The notes under the pieces were generated by a model. That model was given only the letters and a program-made list of their open reading frames with translations. It was not told the origin of the DNA and did not search any database. The translations under genes and the position numbers were made by a program. Positions 14,042 through 23,038 of a DNA stretch of 64,000 nucleotides are shown in pieces (positions within the stretch are counted from its first letter, which is position 1; each line of letters opens with the position of its first letter). Source of the DNA: Nitrososphaeraceae archaeon (lineage in GTDB: Archaea > Thermoproteota > Nitrososphaeria > Nitrososphaerales > Nitrososphaeraceae); assembly GCA_021325295.1 (NCBI GenBank), contig JAJPHM010000052.1, forward strand, positions 62,001 to 126,000, written 5' to 3'.

Positions 14042-16078
14042 TTAGCTCTTCGAGGCTGCCTTCTCTTCTTCCTTTAATTCAAACTGGTCATAAGTGAACT
14101 TTCTGCTGCTGCCAAAAGGTCTAAAAGGCCTTCCATTTCCATGGTAGAATTTAGAGAAGAATTCGACATAGATAAGCCTAGCCCCCTGAATGCCAGGCTC
14201 AAATACTCCAAGAACTATGTTGAATATGTGGCCGATGAAAAAGATTATCACTCCAAGAACAACATAAGGTATTGTGTGATGGAGAGTCTTTACAAAGATA
14301 AAGTCAATAACATCTGCCAGAATAACAGACGCAAGCAGAATACCTACAATTCTGGTATATGACAGTATATGGCTCACTATTGACGGCAGCTCCATTATTG
14401 CTCTGACTCCTTCTCCTACAAACATCAGCCCTATTCCACCAAAGATCAGGCCGAAATAAGCAATGCCTTCTATATGTCTGGCTGGATTTATGTGGCCATG
14501 GTGCAATAGCGCCAAGCCTGTGAGAACAACACCCCAGCCAAAGACAAGCCATCCTAGCTTGCCGATAACATGCTTCTTTTCTCCCTCTCTCATGGCGTTG
14601 ATTATTCCAAGTACAAGACCAAAAGAAACCATACCAAGGCCGATGTATCCACTTATAAGCAAAAGCTTGCGAAGGCCAAACGTCCCTATTGGATCAAGGA
14701 ACGCTCCATCCGCTGGCAGATGCAGACCTAAACTGTGGTTCAGGTACTGGAACAAATACTGATTAATATGAAATCCAAAGTACAGGTTGAACATGAACCC
14801 CAGAATGATTGCTATTATGGCACCGGGAGTCATTGCTTTTGCCAATTTCACCATTTGAGTTGGCCGCAATATGGTCTTTGCAAAGCTCATCAGTGGCCTA
14901 GGCATAATATTCAGATCACGCTTGCCCCCCTGTACCCTCCTTATTACCCATCTTGAAACAAGGAGAATTACAAGTCCGTATCCAACGTCTCCAAGCATCA
15001 TGCCATAAAAGACAGGGAATATGAGTCCAAAGATTAGCGTAGGATCAAACTCTTCGCCTGAAGGTAGAGAGTAAAAGCGTATGAATGATTCAAAGACCCT
15101 AAAGCGTTTTGGATTAGCAAAGAGTGTAGGCGGGCTCTCTTCTGTGTGCAGCTCATAAACGAATATGCCTTGAGAATGTTTTTCAAATGCCCTTTTGAGC
15201 TGCTCGATTCTTGACTCTGGAACCCATCCTTCTAGAGCAAATGCGTCTTTTGTGACGCCAAGGCCATCTAGCACCTCGAGCTTTTTGGTCTCTATTTCCA
15301 GCTGCTCTTCAAGACTCAGTATCTTGCCATAATTTTCCTTCGAGATTTCAGCCAGCTGACCTTCAATTTGTTGAAGCTTGGAAGAGATCTGAGCATGAAC
15401 AGCCTTCTGCTCGCTTATTATCTTGTCTGGTCTGCCGGTCAGCTTTGGAACAGGCTCTAGATGAACACCATGAGCCTGCACCACTGTCGCAAGAGCATGC
15501 GACGGAAAAGCTGGAAAGACTACCAAGACAATGCGAGTTGTATCCTTGCCTTCTGAAGAATACAGAACAACATCATTGGCATTGGGCTCCAGTGCTTTTC
15601 TGAACGCAGCAAACCTTGTTGTATCCACACGGCCAAAATATGATTTGGCAGAGGATAGATGCAGAACCCGAAGGTCCCCCGGAAAGAATGAGAACTCGTC
15701 AAGCAACTTGATATTATTTTCAGTCTCTCTTAGGTCTGTGAGAAGGTTTTCCCTTTCCCTCTGAAGCAATGCCACTTTGGCATCTATTTTTATGGACTCG
15801 GCAGTCTGCATCATCTCTTCAGTGGAAGCAAAGCGTATTTTTGTAGAAACAGGGATTGCAGGCAGCGCAGACTTTAAAGCCCTTATTCTCAGCAGTTGAT
15901 CAGAAACATGTCGATAGAGGTCGCTTTCTCGTTCGCTTTTTACAATTGAAGCAACTTCTTTTGAAAGAGGTTCAATCTGGACTACTCCGAGGTCATGAAG
16001 TATGGAGACAACCTTTTGTCTCTCCCTCTTTAGTCCAAGTACGGCTATACGCTTCATAGAGACGGGCTTTAATACCAT
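14042..16078 (-). CDS. atpI: A-type ATP synthase subunit I (a)
   Basis: The 678-aa membrane stator subunit of the A1Ao ATP synthase. The soluble N-terminal half (to ~340) has coiled coils that connect to the peripheral stalks. The C-terminal half has 7-8 transmembrane helices starting near GEEFDPTLIFGLIFPVFYGM. The helix SYTRIVGILLASVI carries the expected essential Arg that lines the ion path next to the c-ring. The length is normal for the archaeal subunit. It is the last gene of the operon, 131 bp after atpH, with a purine-rich leader (GGGAGGAGG) upstream of the ATG. Placing I and H at the end of the operon differs from the common euryarchaeal H-I-K-E-C-F-A-B-D order. Confidence 0.93.
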   Translation of the reverse strand: MVLKPVSMKRIAVLGLKRERQKVVSILHDLGVVQIEPLSKEVASIVKSERESDLYRHVSDQLLRIRALKSALPAIPVSTKIRFASTEEMMQTAESIKIDAKVALLQRERENLLTDLRETENNIKLLDEFSFFPGDLRVLHLSSAKSYFGRVDTTRFAAFRKALEPNANDVVLYSSEGKDTTRIVLVVFPAFPSHALATVVQAHGVHLEPVPKLTGRPDKIISEQKAVHAQISSKLQQIEGQLAEISKENYGKILSLEEQLEIETKKLEVLDGLGVTKDAFALEGWVPESRIEQLKRAFEKHSQGIFVYELHTEESPPTLFANPKRFRVFESFIRFYSLPSGEEFDPTLIFGLIFPVFYGMMLGDVGYGLVILLVSRWVIRRVQGGKRDLNIMPRPLMSFAKTILRPTQMVKLAKAMTPGAIIAIILGFMFNLYFGFHINQYLFQYLNHSLGLHLPADGAFLDPIGTFGLRKLLLISGYIGLGMVSFGLVLGIINAMREGEKKHVIGKLGWLVFGWGVVLTGLALLHHGHINPARHIEGIAYFGLIFGGIGLMFVGEGVRAIMELPSIVSHILSYTRIVGILLASVILADVIDFIFVKTLHHTIPYVVLGVIIFFIGHIFNIVLGVFEPGIQGARLIYVEFFSKFYHGNGRPFRPFGSSRKFTYDQFELKEEEKAASKS

Positions 16079-16209: not shown

Positions 16210-16587
16210 TTAATCAATACCTTTGACAATGATGTCAATAACAGCCTTCATTACCTTGGGGTTTATCTGGAAAGATACTGACTTTGATTTTGCTTCAGCA
16301 TCCTTTATTATTTTTTCAGCCTCTGCATTTGCAGTTTTTCTGGCCTCTGCGATACTGTCCTCAACCAGCTTTTCACCACCATGCTTTGCCTTGCTTATAG
16401 CCTGTTCTGCTTCCAGCTGCAGACTCTGTATTTCTTGATCAACAACCTTTTTCTTGTTATCTATTTCGATCTGCGCTTTCTCTTCAGCATCTTTGATTTT
16501 CTCTAAAATATGGACATAGTCTGAGCTAGTTGGCACAGCTTTGTGTTCGCTCTTTTCAACCTTGCTTGCCTGTTCCTGTTTAACCAT
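16210..16587 (-). CDS. atpH: A-type ATP synthase peripheral-stalk subunit H
   Basis: A 125-aa charged protein. Residues ~27-100 form one long helix/coiled coil rich in Glu, Lys and Ala (EEKAQIEIDNKKKVVDQEIQ), typical of subunit H (eukaryotic G), which pairs with subunit E in the peripheral stalk. The C-terminal ~20 residues (PKVMKAVIDIIVKGID) resemble the short capping segment of archaeal H. Identification rests on coiled-coil character, length and operon position, because sequence conservation in this family is weak. A purine-rich AAAGGGAG lies upstream of the ATG. Confidence 0.8.
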   Translation of the reverse strand: MVKQEQASKVEKSEHKAVPTSSDYVHILEKIKDAEEKAQIEIDNKKKVVDQEIQSLQLEAEQAISKAKHGGEKLVEDSIAEARKTANAEAEKIIKDAEAKSKSVSFQINPKVMKAVIDIIVKGID

Positions 16588-16634: not shown

Positions 16635-16763
16635 CTAGAAACCTATCATGTACTTTACGATAAGCAAAAGTGCAACTATGCTTCCTAGGATGTTGCCAAT
16701 TTTGAAGGCTCTCATGATTGTGTAGAATTTTTTCTGTTCAGGGTTTGCAAAGCTACTCTGCAA
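16635..16763 (-). CDS. 42-aa single-helix membrane peptide in ATP synthase operon
   Basis: A 43-codon frame beginning at TTG 16763, which overlaps the last codons of atpD, and ending at TAG 16635-16637. The peptide has a polar N-terminus (QSSFANPEQKKFY) and one hydrophobic helix (about residues 21-42, GNILGSIVALLLIVKYMIGF). Translational overlap with atpD and position before atpH point to a real operon member. In Methanosarcina mazei the A-ATPase operon ends with ahaG, a small hydrophobic protein after ahaD; this peptide is a positional analogue, but homology is not shown. A role as an accessory membrane subunit or assembly factor is inference. Confidence 0.6.
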   Translation of the reverse strand: MQSSFANPEQKKFYTIMRAFKIGNILGSIVALLLIVKYMIGF

Positions 16764-17430
16764 TAATCTCCTCCCCCTTTGCTTCCTCTAATGATGCTGC
16801 CTGCTCCCTTTCTCCCATCTTGCGCTTTACAGTCTTGAGCATAATAAAGGTGTCCCGTTCCATCTCGTCCAGCCGGAATGTTATGAATTTCACCGCTGCC
16901 TGCAGCCTGGGGATGAAAACATTCTCAATTGCATTTGACTTTCTTTTTGTTTTTTCAATCTCATACAAGAGTTTTCTCAAAGCTGTCTCTTTCTCAGCAA
17001 CGTCAAGGACAATGCGATGGACTTCTTGAAAAGATTTGATAGCCTCATTGATCGATGTTGGAAGTTCCAGAAGATGTTCAGTAAGCAGCTGCTGCCTGGC
17101 GCCGCCTTCAAGTTTAGGGATACGGACGCCCATAACATTTTTGGACATTATCTGAAGATTGGACAGCTGTGGAATTTTCATTGCTTCGTTCTCCAATCGC
17201 ATAGATCCGGCCAGCATTTCAGCCATTCGGATGCTTTCATAACCTTTTAGCAGCTCCGCCTGCAGGCCGCTTCGAAGCGCAGCTGCAGTTTTGCTAGTAT
17301 TAAAAAACTCTAAAATCAAAGCCTGCCGCTTTAGTTTCAAGAGCCGCAGCCCTTTCTTTGCAATCAGTATCCTGCGCTTGGTACGTATGTATTCAAGCCT
17401 TGTAGGACGGATATTGATTGCTGTGGGCAC
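16753..17430 (-). CDS. atpD: A-type ATP synthase central-stalk subunit D
   Basis: A 225-aa subunit D, the rotor-shaft coiled coil that turns inside the A3B3 head. The N-terminus (PTAINIRPTRLEYIRTKRRI) and the following LLKLKRQALILEF are characteristic, as is the C-terminal antiparallel helix (FIPRLQAAVKFITFRLDEMERD). The GTG start at 17430 is fixed by a strong Shine-Dalgarno seven bases upstream. The Glu-rich C-terminal tail (EEAKGEEIIAE) overlaps the start of the 42-aa membrane peptide gene, suggesting coupled translation. The gene follows atpB by 18 bp. Confidence 0.92.
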   Translation of the reverse strand: MPTAINIRPTRLEYIRTKRRILIAKKGLRLLKLKRQALILEFFNTSKTAAALRSGLQAELLKGYESIRMAEMLAGSMRLENEAMKIPQLSNLQIMSKNVMGVRIPKLEGGARQQLLTEHLLELPTSINEAIKSFQEVHRIVLDVAEKETALRKLLYEIEKTKRKSNAIENVFIPRLQAAVKFITFRLDEMERDTFIMLKTVKRKMGEREQAASLEEAKGEEIIAE

Positions 17431-17448: not shown

Positions 17449-18845
17449 CTAGCTTCCTGCGCCGCCTTGGGCTTTTCTCTTGCCATACTTTGCAATAAAT
17501 TCTGGCTTTACACGCTTCATTTCTGATTCGTCAAGCTCTGCCAAGAGTTCCCAGCCGATGTCCAGCGTCTGCTCTATTGAGCGGTTTTCATCAAAACCTT
17601 GGTTTACAAATTTGCGTTCGAAATTATTGGCTACCCTTAGGAACTTTCTGTCTGATTCACTCAATGCCTCTTCGCCAACAATAGCAGACAGCGCTCTGGC
17701 ATCTTTGCCCTGAGCATATGTTGCGTAAAGCTGATCCGCAAGGCTTCTATGGTCTTCTCTTGTTCTTCCCTTTCCGATGCCTTGGTTCATAAGTCTTGAG
17801 AGGCTAGTGAGGACGTCGACAGGCGGGTGTATGTCTGCCCTGTGCAGGTCTCTGCTCATGACAATCTGACCTTCTGTAATGTATCCTGTCAAGTCAGGAA
17901 TTGGATGAGTGATGTCATCAGCTGGCATTGTAAGAATCGGAATCTGGGTTACAGAGCCGTTCTTTCCCTTTATCTTGCCTGCACGCTCATAAATAGACGA
18001 GAGGTCGGTGTACATGTAACCCGGGTATCCCCTTCTTCCCGGAACCTCTTCACGTGCGGCAGAAATCTCTCTTAATGCCTCGCAGTAGTTAGTCATGTCG
18101 GTGAGTATGACCAGCACATGCATTTCTCGCTCATATGCTAAATATTCTGCAGTAGTGAGAGCAAGCCTTGGAGTGAGGATTCTCTCCATTGAGGGGTCGG
18201 AAGATAAGTTCAGAAATAGAGCTGTCCTTTCCAGAGCGCCGCTCTCTTCAAACTGTTTTATGAAGAAGTTGGCCTCTTCTGTGGTGATTCCAATTGCTGC
18301 AAATACTACCGAAAAGTTTTCGGAGCCGCTCAACACCCTAGCTTGCCTTGCGATCTGCGAAGCAAGAAGATTGTGTGGAAGGCCCGCGCCAGAGAATATT
18401 GGAAGCTTTTGTCCTCTTACAAGCGTGTTCATTCCGTCAATGTTTGACATGCCTGTCTGGATAAACTCAGATGGCTCCTCTCTTGAGTATGGATTGATAC
18501 CAGAGCCTACAAGATCGTATTTTTGTTTTGATACTATTTTTGGACCATTATCCCGTGGATTACCAAGACCGTCAAATACCCGGCCTAGCATTTCATCAGA
18601 GACAGACAGTGTAGCAGTCTCGCCCAAAAACCTCGTTGAAGTCCCGGCTGTGCTCAGCCCCATTGTCTGGCCGTAGACCTGTACTACTGCAAGACCCCTG
18701 CGTGTATCCAGCACTTGTCCTTGTCTTCTATCGCCGTTGGCCAGTTTAATTTCAACCATTTCTCCGTATGCAGCATTCTCTACCCCTTCGACAAATATAA
18801 GAGGCCCTGCGACCTTTGCCAATGATTTGAATGCAATCTTGGACA

Positions 18846-18846
<1 letters not shown>
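17449..18846 (-). CDS. atpB: A-type ATP synthase regulatory subunit B
   Basis: A 465-aa non-catalytic nucleotide-binding subunit that alternates with A in the hexameric head. Recognisable segments are [15 protein letters not shown], the degenerate nucleotide loop [11 protein letters not shown] in place of a Walker A motif, [20 protein letters not shown] and [21 protein letters not shown]. The lack of a GKT loop distinguishes B from A. The start is GTG at 18846, whose first base is the last base of the atpA stop (TAGTG), giving a one-base overlap and probable translational coupling. The length is normal. Confidence 0.95.
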
Positions 18847-20612
<1,766 letters not shown>

Positions 20613-20643: not shown

Positions 20644-20988
20644 CTATTCCATCTTGATACTTATGCCAAGCACTCTCTTTGCAAGTGAAGATATCGACTC
20701 TTCTTGCACACTGCCCTGCAGTGAAGGCATAAAGAGCACCAGAGGCTCGATTGATGCCTCTATCTTTGACCTAAAGGCAGCCGAAAGGCTTTCGCTGACA
20801 GACTGGCTTGCAATGATTAACGCATGTTCGCGTGAAGAAAAGAGTCTTTCCATGATCTTTCGTGCTTCCTCTCCGGAAGCGACAAAAGTATCGTTAACAC
20901 CAAGAAGCCTATAGCCTATTACAAGCTCGCGGTCTCCTACAACCGCAATTTTTCCAGCATAATCCAATTTTTTTTGCTGCTTAGACAT
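20644..20988 (-). CDS. atpF: A-type ATP synthase subunit F
   Basis: A 114-aa central-stalk subunit. It has the CheY-like alternating fold: KIAVVGDRELVIGYRLLGV at residues 12-30, a middle LIIASQSVSES strand-helix, and a C-terminal helix (SISSLAKRVLGISIKME). The VGD and GYRLLGV elements are the strongest family markers. Length and position between C and A agree with subunit F. The gap to atpC upstream is 66 bp. In homologous complexes F binds subunit D and modulates ATPase activity. Confidence 0.9.
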   Translation of the reverse strand: MSKQQKKLDYAGKIAVVGDRELVIGYRLLGVNDTFVASGEEARKIMERLFSSREHALIIASQSVSESLSAAFRSKIEASIEPLVLFMPSLQGSVQEESISSLAKRVLGISIKME

Positions 20989-21054: not shown

Positions 21055-22122
21055 CTATTCATAAAGCAACATCGAATTAATCCTCTCAGCTGAGAGGTTA
21101 TAGCGCTTGCCATAGGCGATCCTTCTTATATTTTCTCGCTCATGTTCTGCGACAATGATGAAATAGAATATTGTACCAATGGATAGGGCAATATTCTTAA
21201 GTTTTTTAATATAATTTATATAGATAAATTTATCCAATGCAACTTCAAAATCAATGAGGCTATTTGTTTTTTTGTACTGAGCCAGTGCTGAACCCAATAC
21301 AAATCGGCCTTCTACTCTTCCTACAAGCTCTGCCACGTTCTTCGCGTTATAGAATTCAGAAAGCTCATTTAAAGGAATCTTTCCTCCTTCAATTAGGTGT
21401 CTGCTGACTATTTCTCTGTCTATACCCGAATCTTTTGCCTTGAGCAAACTTAGAATGTTTTTCTTATCTATCTCAGTCCTTACCATTTCTCTTATGATAC
21501 CTTCGTCGCCTTGGAAGAACCTGAGCGATTCTAGCAATTGTTTGTAATAAAAGGCCTGCATTGCAGTCATCATAGGGCCCAAATCTCCGCTCTTTTGATA
21601 GGAATCCAAATGTTGCATCAGAATTGTGCCATATGGATATTTTACGAGCTGGTTTACCACCCCATCTACTCCTGTCTGCGCCAAGATAATTTTCATTTCA
21701 TCATGGGGAATATTGCCGGCAGTTATACCAGCCGGAAAATTCCTACTGGAAACCAAGAAAGGTTCGGTTTCTGTTATTGTTTTCCCCATGCTCTTTGAAG
21801 ATAAAATCAGCTCAATATTGTGAATGTCCCATTTTAGAAAGTAGGCGCGTACAGCCACCTTGCCGTTAAATGGCGTAGCTTCAAGTGCAATCCTATTAGT
21901 ATTCACAAGATGGGCATTGAGCGCAACTTCGAGCAGTTCTGGAGGCTGGTACGTAGAAGCGGCTTTTTCAATTTCAGGTCCATACCAGGTTGATTCCAAC
22001 ATCTTGGCCATTTCGTTTACATCTTTGGCTTTGATAAGGTTCTGCATTGTTTCCTTTGAAAGCAGGTTTACAGAAAGCGCCTGAAGCCGGCCGAAAGAAG
22101 ATGAATACTGTGATGTCGGCAT
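21055..22122 (-). CDS. atpC: A-type ATP synthase subunit C (central-stalk adaptor)
   Basis: A 355-aa subunit C, the funnel-shaped protein that couples the c-ring to the central stalk (eukaryotic d, formerly named AC39). Three-fold repeated helical bundles are expected; visible hallmarks are YFLKWDIHNIELIL in the first third, TEIDKKNILSLLKAKD in the middle and the C-terminal IVAEHERENIRRIAYGKRYN. It starts with ATG at 22122 one base after the atpE stop, implying coupling. The length agrees with archaeal orthologues. Confidence 0.92.
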   Translation of the reverse strand: MPTSQYSSSFGRLQALSVNLLSKETMQNLIKAKDVNEMAKMLESTWYGPEIEKAASTYQPPELLEVALNAHLVNTNRIALEATPFNGKVAVRAYFLKWDIHNIELILSSKSMGKTITETEPFLVSSRNFPAGITAGNIPHDEMKIILAQTGVDGVVNQLVKYPYGTILMQHLDSYQKSGDLGPMMTAMQAFYYKQLLESLRFFQGDEGIIREMVRTEIDKKNILSLLKAKDSGIDREIVSRHLIEGGKIPLNELSEFYNAKNVAELVGRVEGRFVLGSALAQYKKTNSLIDFEVALDKFIYINYIKKLKNIALSIGTIFYFIIVAEHERENIRRIAYGKRYNLSAERINSMLLYE

Positions 22123-22123
22123 G

Positions 22124-22681
22124 TTAGAGCATTTTCTCCACTAAGGAGCCTTTAATTTGATCTTCGTTATTCCTCAAAAGCTCCTCAAATGTCAAGTCAA
22201 GCTCTTTTGTTCCCTCTTTATTCTCGGCCAATATCCCGCCAATAGTCTGGATCGCTGGGCCCATTGTGATTCCCAGATCTTTTAGAATAGGTCGGTCCTG
22301 CTCGCGGCACCTGATGACTATATCAGGCCCGAGCTTTTTCTTTGCTGAAGAGATCATCGCCTCCAAGACTTTTCTGTACTCTGAGCTCTTTGTGAAGTTC
22401 TTCAACTCTTCTGTTATTACACTCATTGCAGATTCCAGATTGGAATTGATAGCATCAAAGAGTATCTTTTTGGCCTGGAGTCTTGAGGCTTCAATTATTC
22501 TGGCAGACTCTCTTTCTGATTTTGCTTTTGCTTCCTTTGCGTACCGCTCCTTGATTTCTGCCAAGGCGGCGTCCCTTTCGCTCAGTATCTGTGCTTTTTT
22601 TTGAGCCAGCTCGCTATCTAGGCGTTGGAGGTCACCCTTCTTCCTGTTCTCTATTTCATAGACGAACGTCTCTATGCTCAT
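22124..22681 (-). CDS. atpE: A-type ATP synthase peripheral-stalk subunit E
   Basis: A 185-aa subunit E. The N-terminal half is a long helix rich in Glu, Lys and Ala (QRLDSELAQKKAQILSERDA), which pairs with subunit H. The C-terminal half is an alpha/beta globular domain ending in GGILAENKEGTKELDLTFEE, typical of E where it contacts the B subunit. Start ATG at 22681 lies 15 bp after atpK. The naming follows archaeal A-ATPase usage. Confidence 0.9.
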   Translation of the reverse strand: MSIETFVYEIENRKKGDLQRLDSELAQKKAQILSERDAALAEIKERYAKEAKAKSERESARIIEASRLQAKKILFDAINSNLESAMSVITEELKNFTKSSEYRKVLEAMISSAKKKLGPDIVIRCREQDRPILKDLGITMGPAIQTIGGILAENKEGTKELDLTFEELLRNNEDQIKGSLVEKML

Positions 22682-22696
22682 GCGTCATGACATCCG

Positions 22697-23038
22697 CTAC
22701 AGTATGCCCAGCAGCAGGATTATACCAAGTACAAAGCCAATGATCCACAATGTCTCAGGGATGACAAAGAAGAACAATACCTGACCGAACTTTTCTGGCT
22801 TTTCGGCAATTATTCCCATACCTGCAGCGCCAATACCTTGCTGCGCATTACCAGTGCCGATCAGACCACCGGCAATAGCAATTGCAGCTGCAATTGCAAG
22901 CAGAGGCTTTCCCAAGCTTGAATTGGCAGAAGCACTTGTTTGGGCAAAAGCGTGAGTTGAAAATAATGCAAAAATCGCTACTGCCAACCCCGCCGATATC
23001 ATACCTGCAGAGAATTTTAATCGTCTGGCCCGCATCAT
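22697..23038 (-). CDS. atpK: A-type ATP synthase proteolipid subunit K (c) with signal-like N-terminus
   Basis: A 113-aa rotor-ring proteolipid. The C-terminal ~75 residues form the usual two-helix hairpin: GGLIGTGNAQQGIGAAGMG in helix 1 and FFFVIPETLWIIGFVLG in helix 2. The Glu of PET is the ion-binding carboxylate and a Gln in helix 1 is the likely partner. The N-terminal ~40 residues contain a basic start, a hydrophobic helix and an AFA-Q stretch that looks like a cleavable signal peptide. It is the first gene of the operon and has a TATA box about 42 nt upstream. H+ or Na+ specificity cannot be settled by reading. Confidence 0.92.
   Translation of the reverse strand: MMRARRLKFSAGMISAGLAVAIFALFSTHAFAQTSASANSSLGKPLLAIAAAIAIAGGLIGTGNAQQGIGAAGMGIIAEKPEKFGQVLFFFVIPETLWIIGFVLGIILLLGIL

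Follow-up and report, generated by a model that had tools for sequence, protein, structure and literature searches.

Ammonia-oxidising archaea encode their rotary ATPase in V-type-like and A-type operons, with a count of nine subunits for the V-type-like one (Wang et al., 2019; PMC6863869). In that study, horizontal transfer linked with acid and pressure is made responsible for the scattered distribution of the V-type-like version, and its acquisition was proposed as an explanation for the entry of these archaea into acid soils and ocean trenches. In the window, by which we mean the whole stretch of 64,000 nucleotides from a Nitrososphaeraceae archaeon analysed here, an ATPase operon contains a short additional reading frame between atpD and atpH, which raises the question of whether the operon holds a further gene and whether its product might belong to the enzyme. 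The initial annotation had this frame begin inside the end of atpD and stop before atpH, an arrangement that is borne out and lies on the minus strand, a detail the annotation did not give (Table 1). The peptide, MQSSFANPEQKKFYTIMRAFKIGNILGSIVALLLIVKYMIGF, is read from position 16763 to 16635; its first 11 nt are shared with the end of atpD, and 47 nt separate its end from atpH, which corresponds to subunit H/G in the naming of Wang et al. (PMC6863869). The complete order is K-E-C-F-A-B-D-[peptide]-H-I. Searches of the window's genome returned one match to the peptide, one D subunit (PF01813) and one AtpB, so that by these searches the operon encodes its sole A/V-ATPase.

Table 1. Features of the A/V-ATPase operon in the window, in the order of transcription.
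Feature	Position	Strand	Basis and remarks
atpK, c-ring proteolipid	22697..23038	minus	PF00137, 3.8e-13
atpE	22124..22681	minus	PF01991, 1.8e-11
atpC	21055..22122	minus	PF01992, 1.1e-60
atpF	20644..20988	minus	PF01990, 1.2e-15
atpA	18846..20612	minus	named by place and by the same order conserved in related operons
atpB	17449..18846	minus	phmmer against solved A/V-type B subunits, E 1e-185
atpD	16753..17430	minus	PF01813, 3.4e-46; stop overlaps peptide start by 11 nt
Shine-Dalgarno-like AGGGGGAGGAG	16768..16778	minus	4 nt 5' of TTG, within the end of atpD
small single-span membrane peptide gene (span predicted)	16635..16763	minus	42 aa, TTG start, conserved frame after atpD, purifying selection
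atpH, peripheral stalk	16210..16587	minus	weak match to V-ATPase_G (0.071, below cut-off); place between peptide and I conserved
atpI, membrane stator subunit	14042..16078	minus	PF01496, 2.7e-25

To assess the conservation of the frame, we queried 150 genomes of the class with its 42-aa translation. At E ≤1, 34 genomes gave a match, and loci were drawn for 30 of the matches. All but one of these 30 lie directly after atpD; the remaining one falls inside a 436-aa frame without an adjoining atp gene. In the five genomes whose match is none of these 29 (G010, G017, G021, G028 and G047; E ≥0.09), it is distant from D or sits on a different contig. By tblastn, H is the next gene after the peptide in 26 of the 29 loci, the exceptions being L010, L026 and L029; phmmer recovered H of the first two in wider loci (L041 and L064), and L029 stops at the contig end. 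Within the peptide, Q10 is invariant, and N7, F13 and I16 are, together with it, the best conserved positions.

The substitution pattern was analysed in 23 of the 29 sequences, leaving out four long forms as well as L024 and L028. Over all pairs, the in-frame pN/pS has a median of 0.27, and 69 of the 80 pairs with pS below 0.70 stay below 0.5. The two other frames give 0.88 and 1.05 and contain stops in 23/23 and 20/23 sequences, respectively. The 25 short forms, as read, start with TTG (18), ATG (6) or GTG (1), and a GGAG occurs at most 16 nt 5' of the start in all 18 that use TTG. The frame is a real, conserved protein-coding gene under purifying selection. Conservation in 29 genomes together with the low in-frame pN/pS rules out a chance frame, and the annotated 42-aa frame within the ATP synthase operon is thus genuine, being kept after atpD in all 29 genomes with the same type of operon.

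In order to see which operons carry the gene, we classified the genomes independently of the peptide by the identity of their AtpB to that of the window. AtpB was detected at E ≤1e-60 in 143 of the 150 genomes, with identities of 74-100% in 29 genomes, 70% in G145 and at most 64% in all others. The peptide carriers are exactly the 29 genomes with the V-type-like AtpB (29/29 versus 0/114 of the others having AtpB; Fisher p = 6e-31, a value that ignores shared ancestry). Two genomes, G120 and G100, hold both operon types, and there the peptide adjoins the V-type-like D only. Across the class (150 genomes), the peptide is a marker of V-type-like operons alone, a result that goes beyond the initial annotation. 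A general feature of Nitrososphaeria is ruled out, as A-type and other operons (31 loci) lack the peptide.

The line that sets the 29 genomes apart matches the one that Wang et al. draw between V-type-like and A-type operons, as judged by AtpB identity, by gene order and by whether H is present. The subunit set with H and the gene order are those of the V-type-like operon described from acid-tolerant and hadal ammonia-oxidising archaea, and as there, the operon in some genomes sits beside an A-type operon (PMC6863869). The difference lies in the count, since nine subunits are given in that paper and the peptide would here be encoded by a tenth gene; the words peptide, hypothetical and transmembrane are absent from its main text (PMC6863869).

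A longer form of the peptide, 58-80 aa as read, is found in a deeper family of the class (four genomes; L025-L027 and L029) and in the same operon of G400, a single genome of another class (long-form loci L085 and L238). Here the shared core is preceded by the motif PKY[YF]YW[AG][KR].PPK (also given as PKYYYWAK.PPKP); in L029 no clear start codon is present 5' of this motif. In the operons of the deeper family, C-like and K-like genes also occur a second time, downstream of I and on the opposite strand (L063:4756-6102, L064:11567-13002 and L065:10660-12013).

G400 itself was the only match among 61 genomes of its class, and profile searches of 398 genomes of the phylum gave no convincing scores beyond the ammonia-oxidiser set and G400. 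The peptide profile had no convincing match in the Methanosarcina phylum (147 genomes), the two weak hits being without adjoining atp genes. Two scans of viral contigs returned no relative. In two bacterial plasmid atp operons no gene is annotated next to D within 260 nt; the plasmid records listed, 30 of 558, are all bacterial. The distribution within the phylum fits a transfer of the whole operon, peptide included. Thermoplasmatota are the proposed donors of the operon.

The initial annotation described a polar head and one membrane helix, and the predictions agree with it. The window peptide has a Lys/Arg-rich head with a net charge of +3, followed by a 17-residue hydropathy peak of 2.26 at residues 25-41, and AlphaFold2 predicts for the peptide alone a single helix (residues 8-40, mean pLDDT 86); as it was run without an alignment, the model supports helicity rather than position. 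In all 30 homologues the charge before the most hydrophobic 17 residues is +2 to +10 and the charge after them 0 or +1. According to the positive-inside rule, the net positive charge before the span predicts an N-in, C-out orientation. In many members the span is weakly hydrophobic (1.4-1.6 over 17 residues), so that a location in the membrane is likely, short of proven.

The family has no match over the curated cut-offs of Pfam, NCBIfam or PHROGs, the best Pfam line (Glycophorin_A, 0.0043) coming from 1 of 29 members, and no chain in the PDB matches it. The eukaryotic V-ATPase has short hydrophobic proteins in its subunits e and f and in its assembly factor Vma21, each with two spans, whereas the window peptide is predicted to have one. 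Like these proteins, and like CydX, the short protein found with the large membrane enzyme cytochrome bd (PMC4325964), it is short and hydrophobic, attached to or produced along with a large membrane enzyme, and of a kind that readily escapes notice; the general searches of Pfam, NCBIfam and the PDB gave nothing convincing for a relation to any of them. No report of the window peptide was found in the literature searched. What emerges is a real small gene family, of which we found no description, tied to a well-studied enzyme.

What could such a peptide do? Since every V-type-like operon examined has it and no operon of the other version does, it probably belongs to the enzyme as a small part that has escaped recognition, and we favour the reading that it is a resident small membrane subunit of the V-type-like A/V-ATPase. 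The strict association (29/29 versus 0/114), the exclusive attachment to the V-type-like D where G120 and G100 hold both operons, the constraint on the protein (pN/pS 0.27), the same operon in G400, the charge pattern in 30/30 homologues, the one predicted helix and the single copy all support a subunit, as far as sequences can. Against it stand the weakly hydrophobic span of many members and the missing match in the PDB. Ribosomes finishing D might re-initiate at the overlapping start of the peptide, in a coupled translation that would produce it alongside the neighbouring subunits. Its basic head would then stay on the cytoplasmic side while the C-terminal part spans the membrane once; the one long helix (predicted at about residues 8-40) could stand next to subunit I or the c-ring within the membrane sector and steady the interface of the two. 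If the V-type-like operon does have an unrecognised tenth gene, work based on nine subunits was incomplete.

Linkage to the operon would be expected equally of an assembly factor or a regulator. Vma21 and bacterial AtpI have assembly roles for other rotary ATPases, and a small basic single-span peptide encoded among subunit genes and tied to one operon type could likewise aid c-ring insertion or oligomerisation, or the docking of subunit I, before leaving. The sequence holds nothing that separates this role from that of a resident subunit; on the other hand, the strict one-to-one presence through transfer between lineages is also expected of a subunit, and none of the assembly-factor families known to Pfam or NCBIfam resembles the peptide, so that we regard an assembly factor as unlikely, if still a serious candidate. 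The strongly basic head, and the tie of this operon type to acid and pressure proposed by Wang et al. (PMC6863869), would suit a regulator that touches the c-ring or subunit I and inhibits ATP hydrolysis or limits proton leak in acid or at low energy. We consider this improbable: with no independent gain or loss in 29/29 genomes, the peptide is more constant than a conditional regulator is expected to be. A frame that is spurious, or a leader that couples the translation of D and H and whose sequence is unimportant, would account for the short length, the non-ATG start and the overlap with atpD, yet it can be given hardly any credence, as the amino-acid sequence is conserved in 29 genomes and beyond the class, and pN/pS is 0.27 in frame versus about 1 in the other frames.

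The question of descent cuts across these readings of its role. The initial annotation likened the place of the frame to that of the small ahaG gene of the Methanosarcina operon, whose product has been called unresolved in its membership and place in the enzyme (PMC4350412) and absent from Thermoplasma acidophilum and related genomes (PMC3750248). In named Methanosarcinales records, AhaG has 46-60 aa with one C-terminal membrane helix and is encoded directly after D. The loci come from a scan of genome contigs with the M. mazei AtpB, of which the best 80 of 237 were taken; 77 of these loci contain D, followed in 53 by an AhaG-like frame. An AhaG profile matched 45 of the 147 genomes of the Methanosarcina phylum at E ≤0.05, and in 29 of the 30 loci drawn, AhaG lies directly after D. 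In the exception (L231:1486-1683), the AhaG-like frame is situated between two K genes. Within the best 80 of 237 loci (L125-L204), none of the 22 Methanoperedens-type loci has an AhaG-like frame after D, versus 53 of the 55 others; the Methanoperedens grouping is our own and includes records titled 'uncultured archaeon' or 'Methanosarcinales archaeon'. This absence from Methanoperedens-type operons suggests that a related enzyme can do without a comparable part, which weighs against the window peptide being a resident subunit.

The window family and AhaG share the gene position directly after atpD in an A/V-ATPase operon, a polar head with an [EN]P-type turn, one C-terminal membrane helix and a similar size range, the short forms of the peptide having 42-52 aa and the long forms 58-80 aa. 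Their conserved cores differ, with W-x-I-S and G in AhaG versus NPQQ[KR]KF and R.FK.GNI in the peptide family, and the PKYYYW motif of the long form is missing from the aligned AhaG sequences. HMMER searches of peptide against AhaG gave nothing significant either way, and hhalign of the long-form profile against AhaG yielded a one-column hit only. With enlarged alignments, hhalign of the peptide against AhaG returned a score of 16.0 (probability 3.7%, E 0.012). Of 38 membrane slices taken from subunits I and K as unrelated controls, 7 score higher against AhaG; in the opposite direction the score is 13.1, exceeded by 3 of 38. Homology with AhaG is not supported, the score being within the range of these controls. 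The slot after D named in the initial annotation stands and the build agrees, while kinship is unproven. The reversed-alignment controls (9.9 and 9.4) score below the true pair (16.0), which leaves room for a remote link. A peptide that is a remote orthologue of AhaG, both derived from a common ancestral subunit after D and diverged beyond recognition, would explain the shared slot, size and build, but given the control slices, the null searches and the lack of a convincing match to the peptide profile in the 147 genomes of the Methanosarcina phylum we hold it to be rather unlikely. As families without detectable sequence kinship occupy the same slot after D, whether AhaG is part of the archaeal enzyme becomes a question again, and a testable one.

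The slot after D has further occupants. In A-type operons, in which subunit H was not found by Wang et al. (PMC6863869), a different, charged and soluble frame of 41-57 aa starts within 14 nt of the D stop in all 13 loci read (L031-L040 and L042-L044, e.g. L037; families f1-f5 and f9). Its alignment comprised 15 sequences, three of them from family f10, with L042 left out as near-identical to L039. By hhalign, no link between it and the membrane peptide is seen (E 0.87); its weak similarity to part of subunit H (E 0.0024, probability 12%) is of a kind that any charged helix might give. G145, whose AtpB is 70% identical to that of the window, has a third kind of operon, F-A-B-D-[41-aa single-span peptide]-H-I (peptide at L237:4330-4455). 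The build of this peptide is the same as that of the window peptide, and its similarity to either peptide profile is not significant (HMMER E 0.013 and 0.45 in one-sequence searches; 1.8 and -3.5 bits). It is conceivable, if doubtful, that small subunits differing from lineage to lineage generally dock at this slot, be it the window family, AhaG, the G145 peptide or the soluble A-type helix, that this part was swapped when the operon was horizontally transferred into ammonia-oxidising archaea, and that the window peptide forms an integral tenth subunit of the V-type-like enzyme which has yet to be described. G095, which is placed in the genus of G145, has an AtpB at 60% and the A-type layout. 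Four further loci (L045-L048, family f6) carry directly after atpD a frame of 247-253 aa, which we take, from its motifs, to resemble an rRNA adenine dimethyltransferase.
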